Shown here: piece after piece, positions 3,540 to 47,990 of the stretch
How positions within the stretch are numbered: position 1 is the stretch's first letter
Layout: every line of letters begins with the position of its first letter
From: Sclerodactyla briareus
Taxonomy: Eukaryota; Echinodermata; Holothuroidea; Dendrochirotida; Sclerodactylidae
Assembly: GCA_026419785.1 (NCBI GenBank)
Contig: JAODTK010005557.1
Span: forward strand, 1-64,000
Direction of reading: 5' to 3'
Length of the DNA: 64,000 bases
Made by a program: the position numbers and the translations under genes
Notes under the pieces: generated by a model
What the model saw: the letters and a program-made list of their open reading frames with translations, nothing else
Told to the model about the DNA's origin: nothing
Database searches by the model: none

Positions 3540-3895
3540 GATATATCCATGTAGTACTTGACTTCGGGGGTGTTGTCCGGGGGTAAAGGTAAATGTCCGG
3601 TGTAGATGGCCCCGGGGTATGTGACCTTCGGGGGTATTTGCCCGGGGGGTGAGTGTCTGGGGGTAGTTGTCCTCGGGGTATTTGTCTCGGGGGTAAGTGT
3701 CAGGGGGGTGATTGTCCGGGCGGTAGTTGTCCTCGGTGGGATTTGTCCTAGGGGGTAATTGTGCGGGAGGTAATTGTCCAGAAGGTAACTGTCCGAGGGT
3801 ATATGTCCCGGGGGTTGTTGTCCTTCGGGGGTTATAGTTGTCCGAGGGGTTTATGTCGGTGGGTTATTGTAGCGGGGGTAGTCGCCCTTAGCACC
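3540..3895. repeat. G-rich minisatellite, unit about 15-19 bases
   Basis: Some twenty imperfect copies of a unit close to GGGGGTAATTGTCC follow one another. Unit length drifts by a few bases and the G run varies from three to seven. One strand carries nearly all the G runs, so single-stranded G4-type folding is conceivable. No gene lies within it. Confidence 0.85.
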
Positions 3896-14310: not shown

Positions 14311-14785
14311 ACGATCAAGTTTGTAATTGGTGGCTGGATGAAGCTATGTCACTGTGCATGGCCCTGAGTTACAATTTTGTTTGCATCGTATGATTAGATT
14401 TCGATTAAATCAGATTAATACCCCAAATTCCCACACCATCTATGAATCTCTGAGGTTTGTTACATTACACACTAGCAGATAGTGTTTATCTTATGTCAGC
14501 AGGGACCAGGTACGCAACCTAAGTGAGCTAGTTCACAATGAAAACCATTGTCCAGGGGAAGATGATTTGTCTGTCAACACATCCCGCTCGTTTCTATTTG
14601 GTTATGAAAATTGGTCACCCAGAAAGAGTGGTTCCACATGTTGGGTTTTAGTCTGCAATGGTTGTTTCAAGGGTGTATGTCAGGATTTACCATGATGAGA
14701 CTTTAGAAGCGAGAGGAGAGATGTTTAGTGAGGAGGTATGGGGGGAGTGAATGTCGGAATACAAGAAAGGCCAAAACAGGCTAGT

Positions 14786-16049
14786 GATTCCTTGACTCTT
14801 TCTGACAACATGTAGCCTGACACAAGGACAAATTGGAGCTCTTATGGCAACATACTTTGAAAATGTCCCATTTCTCCCAACCAACAAGTGATAACCTTGT
14901 AAGAAATTACACACTAAATTTTCAAGGTTTCAGCCTTTGCTCTGGTGCTCTGACCTGATCCCCAAACAATAGCGTTATGTAAGCAGCATAAGGAATCAGA
15001 CATACCAGTATGTGCTTCATCCATCCAGTGTGGTCAGGTTATCGTGTTACAAGCCAACATGGTCAGAAACCCTAGACTTTCCATAAATTTTCTATTTTGA
15101 CCAAAATTAAATCCCGACACTCAACCAAAAAAACAATGGGGGCCTGGACTCCCCATAAGTACACACCAAATTTCAGCTTGATCAGATAAACCATTCTGGA
15201 ACTATCTGTGTCTACATGGTTTTCAGACATTGAACAGTTGAATGATGACCTTGACTGAACCCAAAACATAGGGGTCCATGTATTTTGTTGTTTTTTTTTT
15301 TTTTTTTTTTGTTTTTCATAGGGGACACCTCTCCAGTATGAGCTTCATCCATCCAGTTGGGGTGAGCTCGTGTCACAGCACAAAATGGCCGAAATATGAC
15401 GTTTACACTAATTTTACTATTTTTGACCAAAATTCACCTAAACCTAAACCAAAAACATAGGGTTCCTGTACTCCATAAAGAAGCTAAATAACAAATTTCA
15501 AACTGATGTCAGACCAACCATTGGACTTATCGTGTCACAAGGTTCTCAGACTTTGACCTTGGTGACCTCAAAATGACCTGACCTGCCCCAAAACGTTAGG
15601 TTTCATGTTATTCATCATAGGGAAAACACACCTACAACGGGGTTGAGTTATCGTGTAACATGCTAAAGTTGGCCAAAATATGACTTCTCACAAATTTCAT
15701 GTTTTGACTAAAATTCACCCGACCCATACCGAAACAATGGGGTTCCTGTACTTCCTAATAAGAAGCTGCATACAAATTCAACCGATCAGGCAACATTCTG
15801 GACTGATCGTGTTCACAGGGTTCATACTTTGACTAATGGTGACATCAGATGACCTCTGACTGACCACCAAAACAGTAGGGACCATGTACACCTTAGGGGA
15901 AACCAACATACCAAGTATGGGCTTGATCCATCAGGTGGGGCTCGAGTTGTTGTGTTCACAAGACTAAGCGGCACACACATACATACAACACATACACACA
16001 CACACACACTGTCATGACTGCATAGATTCCTCGACTTCGTCAAGGAATC
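14786..16049 (+). mobile_element. Helentron/HINE-like element with about 300-base tandem core
   Basis: The block begins with GATTCCTTGAC (14786-14796) and ends with a hairpin whose arms are GATTCCT and AGGAATC (16025-16049). In between are about three units of roughly 280-330 bases, each with the phrases 'tttgacct...ccaaaacaatagg', 'tatcgtgt.acaag' and 'gaccaaaattcac'. A (CA)n tract lies at about 15970-16010, just before the hairpin. A poly-T run at 15289-15310 interrupts one unit. Short inverted termini, core tandem repeats, a microsatellite and a 3' hairpin are the hallmarks described for HINE or 'pearl' elements. No Rep/helicase gene is present, so it would be non-autonomous. The class assignment is inference. 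Confidence 0.55.
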
Positions 16050-16129
16050 AAAAATCGGTTTCTGACTCAGTTTAACTGATCCTACACATACAGCTACTGC
16101 TCGCCAGCTCAAGACGTTCACAATTGCTC

Positions 16130-16745
16130 TTGTTTGCCTCGGACGATATTTCGAAGCGGATGCCACTATAGGCGGTGGGAAGTGAGCATGTTGATTTTTC
16201 GTTCCTGCCCCAAACTCACTGGAAAATGAATTAGCACTGTCTAGTCATACGAGGTACCAGCGAACACCGCAGAAGAACGGAAATTGCCTGCCCGGTCAGA
16301 AAAGGACAAAACGAACCGCTGCAAAATATCGAAGTGTGATCTCATAGGGAGTATAAATGTTAGCTTGAGTTGTAGAGAGAACAGTCTTGGATATTGAGTG
16401 CAAACTATTGAGCGGATAGGTCGAGGAAATCATACAAGAAGATTTTGGTTCTCGACATCCCCTGAGCAGAGGCACTTTCTGGAGAAAAAGAATAACCACC
16501 GAAACTACCCAAGACGAAATGTGTCTTCACAGGACAAAGCTGGTCCGAGGTCCAATTGTCAGATGTTGATACTGGATGCATGTTTCCGGGATCCTCGACT
16601 AGGACCAAGACTATCAGTGCGCCATTATAGGTGGCGTGAACGACCAAGAAAGTTTGGTTGCAGGAAAACCCCAGATCATCCAAAATGCAGTTTCTGGCGA
16701 GCAGGGCGCTCCATAGGTGACGCGAAGCAAAACAAGAAAATATAG
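16130..16745 (+). repeat. Interspersed tandem repeat, unit about 200-220 bases, copy 2
   Basis: Same family and orientation as 12150-12790. The palindromic phrase appears near 16162-16175 (GCCACTATAGGCGGTGG) and near 16618-16638 (GCGCCATTATAGGTGGCG). The phrases 'ttttggttctcgacatcccc' and 'tggatattgag' are shared with copy 1. Two opposite 115-codon frames inside are shadows of the repeat. Confidence 0.7.
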
Positions 16746-25800: not shown

Positions 25801-28800
25801 ATATGCCGATACCCATGCCGAGATTTATTAGGTCCCGTAAATAGGAGAGGATGTATGACTTGCTCATTAACTGACATAGGTTTTGTCTATTGTTGAGACA
25901 TTGAAATTCCTCGCTTGTTTTCGGTTAGCTATTATCGGCCTCATACTGCTTTTATTATTCATTATTCTGTAATGTGCCACGATAGCATGGCTTTTTTAAA
26001 TTGCGAGACTATTGTATTGCTCCAGATGTTCTGGAAGAATAGCCCTCGGGCGAACATCAAATATGATCGTAACCACAAAAGACCAGTTATAACAGGGCGT
26101 CCTAAGCCCAACGGAAGTGCTTAGACGAAATAATGACCATAGTTTGGGAAGAGTTTTACAGGTATGGAAACGGAAATGAGTACCATATTGAATGATCAGA
26201 AATACATTGTTTATTAAGGACAGTTTCGAAAATACTCGAGTGACAAGTCCAACTAGGCGATTAGTCAATTAGGCCTTCAGTCGCGGCGTTGTCACCGAAA
26301 CGCCGAATGGATGATGTTACAACTGCCTGAACCAATCAGCGAAACCTTTTCCTTCGTCGTGGGAAATACGCTCCCAGACCGAAGAGGCTTTTGGCCCCGC
26401 AGAAATAAACGGTATACCCCACACATCGTCAACAACCTCAACGAACTATCGGCCTACCAACGAAATGACCAACTAGGGGAAAACAACCCCAACCGGTAGA
26501 AATTTGAGGAATACCCCTGTATCCTTACCTAGACCAAATAAATATACACCCTTTTTCACGGCCATAAAATATCACAACCCGCAAGTAAACCATTGAGATG
26601 GCTGGTGGTTGCGCGTTATCCCCACAATGCATATACATCTTCGGGTTCCTCTATATCTGCCAAGTCAATATGAGCAGGTCGGCAGGGGAAATACCCGTGA
26701 TTCGGACGATAGGTCTATATAGGAACTCGACATCGAGATAGGTCCGTAGATGGTTAACCTTGCCGGACAAATTGATCGAGTGAAGATGCTTGAAAGTTCC
26801 AAACCAACGGCAATATACTTGTGGGGGAAGGGGGGGGGATGGGGTTGTGCGTTTTATGGTTGTCTTCCGCATAAACCGAGAGTGTGTACTATTCTGAAAC
26901 AAACGTTTCGTCTTCATAATATGTTTGATGCTTCGCTCCATCCGGAAACGCGCGCAACAATGGTTTCGCCGCATTACCTCTCTACATCTACGTAAGAAGT
27001 TGAGTAGGTCCCCGTACTGCATGTACTCCGTAATTAGGTAGTATGGTTCCCTCTGCGTACAACAAGCTAACAGAGACATTAGGTTGGGATGTTTGCCAAG
27101 CTGCATCATCAATTTCATCTCATCAAGAAGGTCCTCCTTAACATCATATGAAGCACCATTCTGAACGTGAATATTAACCGATAATTATTCATTATGATTG
27201 TAGTTTTTTTTTCTACTTGTCTTTTTTTTTCATCGCAGTGTGGGCCGGATTTCCAGACGAGCCTCACGTCGCTGTCGTTTTTTTGGTGCTAACAGACGAT
27301 ATGCCTGTCTGTAATTGGCGCCAACCACAACCATAATTACAGCGTTACATAGAATACATCACAGGCAACTACTATGTTAGTATTCACAGTGAGGTAGGCC
27401 TGAACGATCATAATCTGAACAACACGAGGCACAGAACATGAGCTGAGGGGGGTTACTATGGTTTACGAACGAGCTACCGTGCCCATTATAGTATCAACTA
27501 ATGGGATAGATTGACCATGATATTATAGATGTCCACTACAAAAACTAGAAATGAAGAATGCCACGAACCTTTGGTCGTTTTTACGACAGCTCACATACTC
27601 TTGGTCGTTATTGAGGTCATAGATGAGTCCTTTGTAGACGATTCCAAACTGTCCCTTACCCAGCTCCTCCTGTAGTTCCCGCGACCTTGTTCATGTGTGA
27701 TCTCTTTCGGCTTCAGCATAGGATCAACCCTGTCCTCCATTTCTGCATTTCGAAAAAAAATCGGCTTATTAGTATCATTCCCTAAATTCGAACGTCATGT
27801 TTTATTAGTCTTGACGAATCTGCATTTATTGGGAATCTTTGTTCTTGCTCTGTTCGCCAACTGCTACATTGCAGATGTTTAATGTGGACATGCCGAAGAC
27901 TTGTTTAGCATCCTTCCCCCGCACTAATATTCGCACATTATGCTTCCCCCAGCACTAATATCGCACATTATCATTCAATTAATTCGAATTCAACCTATCA
28001 TACTTTTACTTGTCGGAATACTCTCTTTTTTTTTCATAAACCCCCTAGTTTTGTCTATCTGGTTTACCTAGCGACTGCGGTGTACCCATTTTTTTTGTTC
28101 AAACAACATTCGTTTTAACATTTATATTATTCCCCCTGACTGGCTTGGTCTAGTCAAAACACGACAGTTCAATCTCTAGAACGTCATCAACACACGCCTG
28201 ATAGGAACGCCATGTCCACACACGGTAGCACAAATATACGATGTTCTGGCACAACAAAAATACTCGCCGCCAAAGTATTCATACTTACGTCGGATGGACT
28301 ATTTAAAAACAATAAGTTCTGGGGGCACTGAAGGATTTCTATATGAAGCAGAGCGGGATTAATGGTTGGGGCGCCAGTTTAAGGTACAGTTGTTTTCGGA
28401 TACCAAATATTGAGGCCTCTGCATTATATTATTGTTCAACTTGATGTCGATTGGACGGTACATGGACCGTAGTGAATCGTCCGGCGGGACGGATTCGTGG
28501 TGCAGATTGCCATTGGGAACTTGAAAACCTCTGCTCTATCCACTACGATCGTTCCCTTCCCTCTCTAGAATGACATACGTTAGAAAATAAGTATTATACC
28601 ATGTTTTCGTTCTTCACCCTTCGGCGCCCTCCATGCGCTGGAAGACCTCCTCAATTACTTCTTTGTCGAATACATCCCTTTCCTTCCCTCCTCGCGATTG
28701 ACAAGCATATTAGAGCGCAACCAATGATGACAACAGGGTGAACGAGCATCGCTAATCAGGAGACTTCCTGCCGTACTGATCGTTGGCTCCAGACTGTTCC

Positions 28801-29345: not shown

Positions 29346-29821
29346 AAATATATTCGAAATTTATAACTGTGCTGCCTAAATTATTTTTGCTCAACAAATC
29401 ACAGCACAAATGCATGGACAAATTAATATCTATTTTCGCGTACAACTAGGTCTGTCTACAAACATAAAATCACGAGAAAATAGGAGAGCGGAACGTTTTT
29501 ATTTGCATTCTGTTTCAATTTTTCAATATAATAGTAAGCTTCAGCTGCCTGGGATGTCGATTACTCATTGGCTCGTTCCCGAAAGACAAGAGCGCGAATC
29601 TTGGGATGATTGTCAAAACCCGCAAACCAACCCCGCCCCCGCACATTGCCACGTTTCAGAGCTTCCCGAAAATGATTTCTAAACCACTGGCGAACCCGAC
29701 AAACGAACTTTACAGCAATACAAAACAAACCGGTTTGAATCACCTTTACACAGCTGCCAGCAACTACCATTGCCTATCAGCCTCTTTCCCTCTTTCCTTC
29801 CTCGCACATGCGGACTACTAC

Positions 29822-30155
29822 GGAGCGCGAAACGTCACAAAATCCACCAAAGTTGGAAACAACCCAACAAAAGAATCAACCCATCGAAAAAAAAATTCAA
29901 CCCATCGAAAACAATCACCCATCGAGAAAAGAATCAAACCATCGAGAACAGAATCAAGCCTTCAAAGAAAGAAATCAAACCTATCCCAAAAGCGGAATTC
30001 ATACTATCCCAAACACGAATCCAGTACGCCATAATATCCTCCCAGACCTCCACCTTCACAAGGATTTCTACATTTATTGGGCTGCCCTTTAAATTTGATA
30101 CACTCCTCGCAGTTCCTGGTGCGCGGAATGTAACAAAATCATCAAGCATGGAACA
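29822..30155 (+). repeat. Minisatellite-bearing element, direct copy of an inverted pair
   Basis: A head phrase GCGCGAAACGTCACAAAATC (29824-29843) is followed by about seven units close to CCCATCGAGAACAGAATCAA, a middle with 'ctatcccaa.agcgga' and 'ctccttxaaxxxtgatacact', and a second head-like phrase GTGCGCGGAATGTAACAAAA (30119-30138). The same order occurs inverted at 32190-32612. Lys/Asn/Pro-rich open frames are by-products. Confidence 0.8.
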
Positions 30156-32189
30156 GACCTCATGATTTTGGACCGCAATCTCCCTTCGTAGTGATTCCTG
30201 AAGGGTGATTTTCTAAGATCTGGATACCAGCTTTCATTGGCAGTTTTGGCCATGTTTCTTTCTTCGCTAAGAGCATACATATTTTGGAGAAAGTCTGGAG
30301 TGTGCTGGTCAAGCTGAGGAGCTTTTTGTTTCACCCTCTTGTATTCTACTATTTTAAAATGGTAATTGGGCAAATAGAATAGTGTTAGTTTTGAATGGTT
30401 TTTTAGGGGGCGACCTTGTCGACGTCTGGGAACTAAACAGTCCTCAACATGGCATCGGATCAACACCGCGGCGAGTAGGTATTTTGTGTCCCTTCTTTCT
30501 GTATTTGTTTAGGCGAGGCATGGAAGACCTGCTCTTAGTAGCGCCTTCCTAGTGTTGTCTAATTATCTCTATAAATGAAGGTTTTTTGGTCCATAGTCAT
30601 TTTCTACACGCATGCCAGTGTTTATATCGATCATCGCATCAAATTTGTTGTAACCGTGGGGATTCGTTGTAAGGATGTCCGGCTATCAGGGAAGTGTGAC
30701 ATCCACATATACGCCACAGTGAACGGCTGTTTCTTCTCTGAATTCGGTCAGTCGGAGACAGACCTGATACCTCCTGAGTTATAAAGTATGGTTTGTTGTT
30801 CAGGTTGAAAAAAAGCGTTGTAGTTGGACCAGTTTCTGTGTGTTGTTTTTGGGTGTAGACCAAGGGTCATTTTCTGAAGAATAAATGGACCATTCAGGAA
30901 CATCATTATTTTTTTCAACCATTTTAGCTTGTTACCTGCAAACTTATTCCATTCATGTGATCTATGTACGTTACTGATTAATTCATGACATTCACCAAGA
31001 ATTTACAGACTTCTAGATATCCTACCATACTTATTGATTTCATTACCTGTATTTTATGTCGTCTTAATCATCTAGAAAAGAGTACATAATTCAACATTCT
31101 AGGCTATAGTACTTAACCACTTTCACTGCTTGTAGTAATTACCGCATGTAGAGAGATCACCGAATGATACAGCCATCACTCAATAACTACACGCTATAAC
31201 AGCAATGAGTCCTACAAGTTTCCAAATAGGCCAGTATTGCACGAATTCAGGTTCACTGTCAGTGTGGCGGAGGGTGGGGGTGGGGGGTGGGTTGGGGGGG
31301 GTGTGGGGGGGCAAATTCCCCACGAGTGGTCCGGACGCGATCAAAACTTTCGAGTCTCAATCACCCACCTCCTATGTCAATACCTGCATCTCTATGTTTT
31401 GTTGTTTTGTATGTTCTGCAGCACAAAACAGTGGGTAGACCGCTTCGGGAAAGGGTGGTTTTCCCTCCCCACCAGAATGTAACATGCTCTTAGGACATTC
31501 CAAGATATCATAAGATTGTACAGGCCTATATCTAACGGTTGTATAGTTTTATAGTATGATAGGTGGATGTATATACTGATGATCTATTACTGACCTAAAC
31601 TTAAGCGAAGAATAAGATATATGATATGCTTTAGGTAATAGACAATTTTCACTAGCCTGTCGGGGGCAATCATCACTCGTCGAGGGTGTGATTTTTAGCA
31701 TACCCCCTCGGGCCCGACAAAGTGGGATCTTCCCCGGACGGTTGGGGGGGGGGGAATAGGCGCGCGCTGCCACCCCGCCGCTGGCCGGCCACTTATCCTG
31801 TGCACTGGCTATAGGCTCACTACATGCTCCATCATTGCCATAGGACAGGATGTAATGCCCTTGGCCAAGGTGCTGGTTGTCGTGGGATTCGCCAAGTGCG
31901 CAAGAGGCCAACGTGAGTGGTTTTCAGTATGTACTCGTCACTCCATTACATACTTTTTCTGTTAAATGAGAGTCCATTTGTAGTACAAATGTAGTGTTGT
32001 TCACTCTACGAAGTTTATAATCAGTCATTCTGTAGATACTTTAATCTTATTCTCTCTGACTACCCTCTCTCGCACCTTCTCCACTATGTACGCTCACTCA
32101 CGCTATGACCAATATTGCGACAAGGATCATTACGCAGGGTTGAGTTCTTGCTTTCCTTGACAGTTAACTTCGTTTTGACAACCGTTGTT
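30156..32189. other. No gene recognised
   Basis: Sequence between the two arms of the inverted pair. It contains G runs at 31270-31312 and 31742-31753. Minus frames at 30089-30466 and 31549-31911 are open but unassigned. The phrase 'cccttggccaagg' near 31858 resembles filler seen in other marine-invertebrate retroposons. No firm feature. Confidence 0.4.
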
Positions 32190-32612
32190 TTCTGTTTTCG
32201 ACACCTTGATTCTGTTTGGAACACCTGTTTTCTGATTTGGACTATTGTATTCCAAATCCTGATGGTCTGATTCCATTCTGATGTTTTGTGACACTCCGCG
32301 CACCAGGACCGCGCGAAGTGTATCACACTTAAAGGAGCACGGCAATAAAATAAAATCCTGTGTAAGGTGAAGGGTCATGAGTATCATATGACGTACGGAT
32401 TCTTGGTGGGATAGGCTGATTCCGCTTTTTCAATGGGTTGATTCTTTTATTTGAAGGATTGATTTCTGGTCTCCATGGGTTATTCCCTTTTCTCGATGGG
32501 TGATTCTGTTGTCGATGGGTGATCTTTTTTCGATGTTGTGTTGTCTTTTTTCGTTGTGTTGATTCCAACTTTGGTGGATTTTGTTACGTTTCGCGTCCCG
32601 TGTACGACCTCT
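32190..32612 (-). repeat. Minisatellite-bearing element, inverted copy
   Basis: Read on the minus strand from 32612: head ACGCGAAACGTAACAAAATC, then units close to CCCATCGAGAAAAGAATAAC, the same middle phrases, and the second head GTGCGCGGAGTGTCACAAAA (near 32285-32304). It continues past this with another array of units close to GTCGAAAACAGAAAACAAC down to about 32165. Together with 29822-30155 it forms an inverted pair with about 2 kb between arms. Confidence 0.8.
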
Positions 32613-40085: not shown

Positions 40086-41449
40086 AAGTCATGAACTGCT
40101 CATCGTATTCCTTAGGCAAGCTACACGGGTTAAATATGGGGCATGAAATTAGTTGACCGAAACTCAAACAAAACAAAGCAACGGTGGTCATGTTTTCGAT
40201 CGTTAATGGAGAGAAAGGTCTTTGACCTTCTGTCCCGAATCGCATTCTCTCAGAACCTCATTGGGGAAAAGCCAGATGGTGGCCCGCCAGGTAAAAAAGA
40301 AGAAAAGCCGCGCATCTTTGGGGGAGGGGGGGGGGAGGGGGATATCAAGGCAAAAATAGGACATTACGCACTGCCTTTCTGTCCTACACTAGTGTGATGG
40401 CCGAAACAAACAATGCAATGCAGATCAATCAACATAATTGTATATATAAAATATGTGGTGTGGACCTATATTATGGACCTAATGCTTTCTGGATGCCTCT
40501 TCTCTGTACCTTTCTCTGTCGGCATTTCGCATAGTTTGAACCGCGATACAGAAAAGAAAAATTTAAGGTAACGAAAATTAGTAGACTCATGATCAATCAG
40601 AACGCATTCGATTTTAATTAATAGTTTGTAAATTGTACTAACGTGGTACTAACGCCGCAAATGTGTTCGGGTATCTTAAATACATAGTGATATTCAAAGT
40701 TAGCGTTTTGTTGTCAACAATCATGTAGCATTGGGCATACATACATGTCGACGATAGTGTGTCGTTGAAGTTCAAATTCCATTTGGAAAAAATGCAGTCA
40801 GAATTGGAATGAATTATCACTATTTGTTGAATCTCTCTGTTCCAATACTAAAAAAAAATATCCACAACTCCCAGCACAATAAACAATTGATGCCAACCGG
40901 GCGCCTTGACATGAACATAAGGGCATATGCTGAGACCGAGAGGTGCGTCGTACAAGTACTTAGTGATTGAGTGGTGAAGGGTCCCAGTGAAAAACGATGG
41001 GAGCGAGTATGTGTCGCAGGATGCAGTTTCGCAGCTCATACCTACTTACACGCACGCATAAGCGCTCGAAGTCTGGCTAGAAGATATGCCTTAATTGCAG
41101 AGGAATAAAGTTAAAGAGAAGAAGAAAAAAATAGCAGCTTGATGGGAGTTCCCTTTTGTTCAGTCAGAGTGATACTCACATTTGCCTCATGTTTTATTGT
41201 AGCCCGGTTGTTGAACAGTTTCGGATTCTACGCCAGTCTCAAGTCGGACAGCCGTGACGCTTAAGAAAAGTAAGCCATCAAAAAGTTGGACTGTTGACTT
41301 GAGCCGGAGTGTACACTCGAACGTAGGGACATTGACTGCTGTTCCTACAAATTCGGTGACGTCTAACAATCTCAGAGTCACCGGGGGGCATAAACATCCA
41401 ACAACTGTTGATAAACAAATGCAGAATCAGAAAGCCAAGAAGGCTTAGT
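40086..41449. other. No gene recognised
   Basis: About 1.3 kb. A G run is present at 40317-40340. No coding or RNA feature could be supported. Confidence 0.4.
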
Positions 41450-42620
41450 GATTCCTTGACTGCCTTTCATAACCTCACTAGTTTGTAAACATCATTACCT
41501 TTGACCTGACCTCAAAACAATAGGATGCATATATTCAGGATGGGAACCCAGATACCAAGTAGAGCTCATCATCTAAAATGAGGTCGAAGTTCTTAACTTC
41601 ACGCAGCTTGAAAATGCCCAAAATATCAATTTTTCACAAATTCAATTTGGCCCTGGTCTGCACAACCAAAAAAAACAAACAGGTGCTGTACCCCCCATGA
41701 GAATGGTACACACCAACCAAATTTCAACTCGATTGACTAAGTGTTCTGGTTTAGACTTATTGTGTTAACAGATTTCCATACTTTGACCTCCCTCGACTCA
41801 GATGACCTTTGACCTGACCCCAAAGCAATAGGGATCATTGTACTATTATGGGGAACCCATATACCAATTATGAACTTTATCATTCCAAGTGGGGAGAGTT
41901 ATGGTTAAACGAGATAAATTACCAAATTATCAATTTTTTTCACATTTTCCAATTCGTTCAAATCGACCCCGATTCACGCCAAAATCAATAGGGTTCCTGT
42001 ACTTCTCAATGAAAGCTGCATTACGGAATTTCAACGGATCGGGCCACGCATTCTGGAATATCGTCTAAACAGATTTTTTCGGACTTGACCTCTGGTGTCC
42101 TCAATTGATCTTTGACCTGACCCCAAAACAATAGGGCATGTACTCATAGGGATCATGTACCAAATTATCAAATTTTTCCATTTCCCAATTTTTTCTCGTG
42201 ATCTGACCCCCGATTCACACCGGAAAAAAATAGGGGTCCTTTACTCTCGAAAGAAAGCTGCATTACGAATTTCAACCTGACGGACCAGGCATCTGGAATT
42301 ATTCGTTGTAAACAAATTTTTCTGACTTAGACCTCGGTTGACCTCAGATGACCTTTGACCTGACCCCAAAACAATAGGGTTAAGGTACTCATGAGTGGGG
42401 AACCATATACTAAGTATGAACGACCATCCAAGTGGGGGGTTATCGAGTGGGGTAACAAGCGAAATTGAAAATACAATTTTTCACAATTCAAATTTTTCCT
42501 CTCAAATCTGCCCCGGTCTGCACAAAAACAATTACGTTCTTGTATCACCATACAGCAACAGGTACCATTTTTTAAGTCTTTGGCATGCCACGACAGGGAA
42601 TATTTCGAAACCCGGTCCAC
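41450..42620 (+). mobile_element. Helentron/HINE-like tandem array, copy 2
   Basis: It opens with GATTCCTTGAC (41450-41460), preceded by GCTTAGT, the same start as the element at 14786 (preceded by GCTAGT). Four units follow with 'tttgacctgaccccaaaacaataggg' near 41503, 41810, 42112 and 42354 (spacing about 307, 302 and 242). Each has a second half with 'gtaccaaattxcaacxxgatcgg' and a 'tctggaat.atcgt' phrase. Its other end may be at 44700. Confidence 0.6.
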
Positions 42621-44505: not shown

Positions 44506-44705
44506 ACAGCCTCGACGTCCGATTATGTTGACCTCAGATTACCTTGACCTGACCCCAAAACAATGGGTTCATGCCCTCACAATTGGGTTGAAACACAGGA
44601 AATTGGGAAAAACAGTGACGAGCTTGGCCATTTGTTTCTATAGATTATAGATTGAGCTCCACCCACTGTCTTCAGTCAATTTAAATGAGGCCAAGGAATC
44701 AATGC
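44506..44705 (+). repeat. Detached fragment of the 'CAAAACAATAGG' family
   Basis: One partial unit with 'cttgacctgaccccaaaacaatggg' (about 44542-44566). The segment ends in CAAGGAATC (44692-44700), the inverse of the GATTCCTTG start at 41450. It may be the 3' end of the same element separated by 1.9 kb of insertion or unrelated sequence. Confidence 0.5.
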
Positions 44706-47640: not shown

Positions 47641-47777
47641 ATTGCCCTATGGTGACCTCAATTGGAATTTGCCTGACACCCGAAAACCATAGGGTTCATC
47701 CTTTCCGCATGAGCATCCCACGTGCCTAATTTGAACTTGATACATGGTTGCGTTCTTCAGAAGAGCTGACAAGAGGG

Positions 47778-47854
<77 letters not shown>

Positions 47855-47990
47855 CGCAGCACACGTAGCACACGCACACACACGCACACACGCAGCACAC
47901 GTAGCACACGCACACACCACAGCACACAGGCACACACATATATGCACGTGCATAACTGCATAGATCCCTCGAGAAAAAAAACACGAACAT
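47641..47990 (+). mobile_element. HINE-like 3' end: repeat unit, (CA)n, terminal phrase
   Basis: A partial unit with 'ggtgacctcaattgg' and 'cgaaaaccatagggttc' is followed by (CA)n at 47778-47935. Immediately afterwards comes TGCATAACTGCATAGATCCC, the same terminal phrase that follows the (CA)n at 16012-16030. Here the hairpin is degenerate. Confidence 0.6.

Follow-up and report, generated by a model that had tools for sequence, protein, structure and literature searches.

The window analysed here is a stretch of 64,000 bp (bases 1-64000 of contig C2800, in a genome of 319 Mb and 3171 contigs). It contains one complete element of 1294 bp on the minus strand, together with a second, partial copy and smaller pieces of the same family. 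The features are listed in Table 1.

Table 1. Positions of the element, its parts and related copies in the window.
Feature	Position	Strand	Remarks
Whole element copy (very probably HINE), 1294 bp	14761..16054	-	Element 5' end 16054, 3' end 14761; from aligned termini of dispersed copies
5' terminal T5 (plus strand AAAAA)	16050..16054	-	
5' subTIR GATTCCTTGAC	16039..16049	-	Plus strand reads GTCAAGGAATC
IR complementary to 5' subTIR	16025..16035	-	10 Watson-Crick pairs and one G-T pair, element strand
(TG)n microsatellite of 5' module ((CA)n on plus strand)	about 15972..16009	-	From the sequence
Core array, ~3.25 decayed units of ~312 bp	14948..15962	-	
3' module	14761..14947	-	
3' subTIR GTCAAGGAATC	14786..14796	-	Plus strand reads GATTCCTTGAC
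3' terminal palindrome, degenerate in window copy (family form AAGCCTTTTGGCTT)	14766..14782	-	
Second family copy	41426..42552	-	3' end present, no 5' end found
Probable third-copy remnant	47642..47970	-	Unit fragment, CA tract, 21-nt 5'-module trace (E 0.002)
Isolated core-unit fragment	44526..44587	-	

Anatomy of the window copy

The original prediction outlined a block at 14786-16049 with inverted termini, and both of these are present at the positions given for them, GATTCCTTGAC at the start and GTCAAGGAATC at the end of the plus strand. The hairpin at 16025-16049 and the adjoining (CA)n tract that it described are likewise found. The block is a real element, but it was drawn too short. 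Conserved sequence in the aligned copies passes it on both sides, the true ends lie 25 and 5 bp beyond its limits, and the missed 25 bp contain the terminal palindrome. On the plus strand the copy reads ACAAGAAAGGCCAAAACAGGCTAGTGATTCCTTGAC ... (CA)n ... GATTCCTCGACTTCGTCAAGGAATCAAAAA. Its reverse complement has the order T5, subTIR GATTCCTTGAC, IR, (TG)n, tandem units, subTIR GTCAAGGAATC, palindrome and end. Because this is the order of parts in DINE-1 and in Cg_HINE, the hairpin that adjoins the (CA)n tract represents the 5' subTIR and its IR. The hairpin had been taken for the terminal 3' structure; that orientation is reversed, and the start of the block is the 3' subTIR.

The two subTIRs of the window copy, each of 11 bp, are a perfect inverted match to each other. 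The hairpin is composed of GATTCCTCGAC-TTC-GTCAAGGAATC, with one A/C mismatch on the plus strand that is a G-T pair on the other. This side of the element (5' subTIR and IR) folds better than shuffled sequence (z -3.3; 0 of 200 shuffles as good); the folded 3' end shows no clear excess over shuffles, either in the family form (z -1.3) or in the window copy (z -0.08). The palindrome of the window copy is 4 edits away from the family form, and the element's 3' end, TCTGGT in the family, is TCTTGT here. With up to 2 mismatches allowed, the window holds 7 occurrences of GATTCCTTGACNNNNTC where 1.6 are expected, and 0 of 100 shuffles reached 7.

The tandem units of about 300 bases that had been reported are real, though decayed. 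They were detected by a search with the family's unit; TRF at its default score listed no array in this stretch, the units being too decayed. A poly-T run at about 15290-15311 (plus strand) breaks the array, and its three full units have a mutual identity of 0.703, the lowest of the 23 copies with at least two full units. This marks the window copy as decayed. The sole stop-to-stop frame of at least 120 codons that touches it (15822-16244, minus strand) extends beyond the element.

Three further features of the window were recorded. At 29820-32601 there is a Foldback-like element with outer inverted arms of 56 nt that are 88% complementary; tandem repeats of about 20 bp (AAAAGAATCAACCCATCGAA) adjoin both arms in inverted orientation, about 2.7 kb apart. 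An array of some 13 copies of the 15-bp unit GGGGGTAATTGTCCG occupies 3628-3823. The minus strand at 26654-27184 encodes part of a tyrosine-kinase domain (PF07714, E 1.5e-14) and may be an exon from a gene for a receptor kinase.

Dispersed copies and their tandem core

A search with the block as first outlined gave 88 match rows at no fewer than 40 places, the window included, and 40 of 5973 first-look candidates were scored. For the alignment of ends, 39 other loci, selected for their resemblance to the window copy, were taken with their flanks; the window copy itself completed a sample of 40. Thirty of these copies were mapped at both ends and are the basis of all counts of ends, junctions and array phase. 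The remainder (L011, L021, L024, L027, L028, L036, L039, L041, L046 and L047) were dropped, since an end was unmatched or partial or a flank was missing. Where there was more than one candidate end (L020, L023, L030, L032 and L045), one was selected manually; in L032 the boundary and junction analyses took the outermost 3' end, and the array-phase, unit-identity and end-part edit counts took the innermost.

The mapped copies range in length from 595 to 2497 bp and have common ends. The 5' subTIR is within one edit in 26 of the 30 and the 3' subTIR in 22, with both so conserved in 20. The IR is within one edit of the family form in 19 copies and the palindrome AAGCCTTTTGGCTT in 23. The leading T run has exactly 5 bases in 20 copies and 4-6 bases in 26. 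A 28-nt pattern that spans the palindrome and the 3' subTIR, allowed up to 2 mismatches, matched the 319-Mb genome 1032 times (511 + 521), and the reversed control of this pattern gave 0 matches in the same genome. Twelve exact matches to the 3'-end pattern, each with 3 kb of sequence, were selected regardless of their interior. Core units were found in all 12, and the 5' end was recognised in 8; none was found within the 3-kb pieces of L058, L061, L063 and L066. The 3' module of L061 is split by an insert of about 2.2 kb nested in the HINE. The insert has TAGGGCCAATTATTTTCC as its inverted ends and what seems to be a duplication, CTATAGG, and we take these ends and duplication to resemble those of hAT-like transposons.

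The unit reported by TRF measures 314 bp in L011, where it is present in 9.3 copies, 309 bp in L013 and 308 bp in L037. The unit is an old dimer, with parts 167 bp apart that are 69.5% identical over 105 bp. All 30 arrays start at the same phase of the unit (200-205), and on the 3' side three phase groups account for most of them. For the eight copies whose arrays end at phase 4-13, the number of units exceeds a whole number by 0.33-0.42, which means that the array changes by whole-unit steps. Comparison of the 88 unit matches that were long enough, out of 123 in the 30 elements, gave an identity of 0.930 within copies (125 pairs) versus 0.876 between copies (3703 pairs), values that may be biased by recruitment of the sample through the window copy. 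Such homogeneity within copies, and the large share of the element taken up by tandem units of about 312 bp, would also suit plain dispersed satellite DNA whose apparent ends are chance flanks. However, the 30 mapped copies have in common both end modules and the phase at which the array starts, their boundaries are sharp, and an empty site is available (see below); we give the satellite reading next to no probability.

The 309-column consensus unit contains, at columns 102-134, four direct repeats of AGGTCA with spacers of 1, 4 and 4, which we take to be the nuclear-receptor arrangements DR1, DR4 and DR4. A first-order Markov model of the unit predicts 0.133 AGGTCA per unit, and four were reached in 0 of 20000 simulations; small duplications within the unit could, however, account for the four as well. 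The spacer-1 pair (AGGTCAGAGGTCA) is kept in 55 of 88 units, the spacer-4 pair in 64 and a single AGGTCA in 6, and the window copy retains six TGACCT on the plus strand. Identity in the AGGTCA columns is 95.8%, against 93.1% in the rest of the unit, and there is no case for selection on these columns because several other stretches of the unit are equally conserved. It is quite unlikely that the family spreads ready-made putative nuclear-receptor response elements. If it did, a rolling-circle element may have seeded about 1000 loci with tandem hormone-receptor sites and would be a regulatory spreader. In Caenorhabditis, Helitrons are reported as carriers of heat-shock elements (PMC6927752); among the matches listed from the open-licence literature, no paper describes such receptor sites in HINEs.

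Insertion sites and Rep remnants

The original prediction suggested checking for a constant boundary between T-T or A-T without target duplication. The ends of the mapped copies are constant, and in 23 of 30 the 3' end is followed by T, a base that makes up 32% of the flanks. Junction repeats were searched up to 6 bases from both junctions of the 30 copies, with shuffled partners as the control. The longest direct repeat was of at least 5 bases in 10 copies, against 8.0 expected, and repeats of at least 7 bases were absent from all 30. Target-site duplication was rejected on these counts, repeats of 4-5 bases being slightly above expectation and the overall picture near that of the shuffled partners.

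The joined flanks of L037 matched 19 places, own loci included. Seven paralogous loci, 71-76% identical, can be aligned over the junction and lack the element, with L071 aligning poorly past the junction. The empty site in L069 reads ...GTTGTCCCCTTTTTTATTCACTGCTTACAC; the filled site of L037 reads ...GTTGTCTCT up to the element, TTTTTTATTCC...GGCTTTTTCTT for the element and GCAGTTATCATTGCTTACAC beyond it. The insertion sits in a T-run and target duplication is not seen. Directly after the element L037 has GCAG, where the empty sites have other bases. Given this four-base mismatch, the T-run and the divergence of the paralogues, the exact break cannot be placed. This empty-site evidence is thin, as it comes from one insertion and from paralogous loci. 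To judge by eye from the flanks, the host sequence reads like a LINE reverse transcriptase.

Inverted copies of GATTCCTTGAC near both ends could suggest a MITE, that is, a non-autonomous cut-and-paste transposon with short terminal inverted repeats, and pearl elements were first given that name (as told in PMC7492417). Such an origin is nevertheless highly improbable, for the inverted repeats are subterminal and the ends asymmetric, the junction repeats of the 30 copies are near the shuffled-partner level, and the single insertion with empty sites shows no duplication.

Two loci have arrangements that suit read-through or repeated end use, and neither arrangement proves either. In L059 a head-to-tail pair is formed by a 3' end (...GGCTTTCTGGG), one T and then a 5' end (TGATTCCTTGAC...); in L032 three 3' ends start within 140 bp. 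A head-to-tail pair and insertion that leaves the target unduplicated would be equally in order for a derivative of a canonical Helitron (5' TC, 3' CTRR, target between A and T), and the two Rep remnants of the genome, described below, may be of either Helitron or Helentron origin. The ends of the family are T5GATT and TCTGGT, however, rather than TC and CTRR, its target is T-rich, and the combination of subTIR, IR and microsatellite is the plan of DINE-1 (PMC4067079). We therefore think derivation from a canonical Helitron very improbable and favour a Helentron derivative.

A whole-genome search for PF14214, the Rep domain of Helitrons, found two loci with three matches between them, one interrupted by an internal stop; the same domain had no match in 14 of 14 control genomes. 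The original prediction suggested looking for an autonomous copy with Rep/helicase that shares both ends. Among the Rep loci no such partner was found, neither of the two being enclosed by family ends. The locus on C2413 was considered as the partner and rejected. The family copy 1.2 kb downstream of it (104755-108016, about 8.6 units) possesses both a 5' and a 3' end of its own, which leaves the Rep remnant outside. No family ends were seen in the 19.6 kb surrounding the remnant on C2926. The piece at C2413:103101-103575 (L051/L052) is of Helitron/Helentron Rep type and has the stretch EFQQRGSPHAH. About 5 kb from the Rep remnant on C2926 there is a 220-aa open piece (L053:3832-4491; 121131-121790 of the contig) that resembles the parvovirus NS1 helicase (PF01057, E 2.4e-14), perhaps from an endogenous viral or related element.

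Class of the family and relation to known elements

The original prediction placed the element among the HINE/pearl-like non-autonomous Helentrons, and the subTIRs, IR, microsatellite, tandem core and 3' palindrome of that class are all present. Central tandem repeats are frequent in HINEs without being obligatory, and TT is their preferred target. With this anatomy, its dispersal, a T-rich target without target duplication, one head-to-tail pair and a fixed phase of the array on its 5' side, the window copy is very probably an old member of a high-copy family of HINEs, rolling-circle elements of Helentron type that lack enzymes of their own. We infer the enzyme and every reaction step of its transposition as follows. 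A Rep/Helicase made elsewhere would recognise the two subTIRs and nick at the T-rich 5' end. One strand would then be peeled off through the microsatellite and the core array, with a stop at the 3' palindrome, and the freed strand would be joined into a T-run without target duplication. Read-through beyond the palindrome would produce head-to-tail copies, and the core array may lengthen or shorten by whole units of about 312 bp.

The family seems to be one more of a known kind rather than a new kind. In the Pacific oyster Cg_HINE the 5' subTIR, IR and microsatellite stand on the left and the 3' subTIR and palindrome on the right (PMC7492417), and the present family has these same parts around a satellite-like core. 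Both have a TT or T-rich target and no target duplication. Cg_HINE likewise has not been linked to autonomous Helentrons (PMC7492417), and the oyster problem of a high copy number with no autonomous partner of the same ends linked to the elements is repeated here. Compared by description rather than by sequence, the two differ in the unit, which is about 312 bp here (two diverged halves at an offset of 167 bp) and a consensus monomer of 138-181 bp in the oyster, and in the microsatellite, (TG)n here and mostly of 4-nt motifs there (PMC7492417). Pearl elements of Crassostrea virginica and Anadara trapezia, later re-classed as non-autonomous Helentrons, similarly have a short array of core repeats, although by description, not sequence, these are of about 160 bp (as told in PMC7492417).

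The Drosophila DINE-1 and the mite HINE-Mo share with the family the subTIRs, a 3' stem-loop and a T-rich target without duplication, and DINE-1 also has an IR near the 5' subTIR (PMC4067079). Autonomous partners have been linked for these two elements and not for the present family (PMC4067079). In HINE-Mo the distance of the subTIRs is 2-4 nt at the 5' end and 38-60 nt at the 3' end (PMC4067079), compared with 5 and about 23-25 nt here. The present family adds one member to the HINEs with satellite-like arrays and extends the complete DINE-1 arrangement to a further eukaryote genome.
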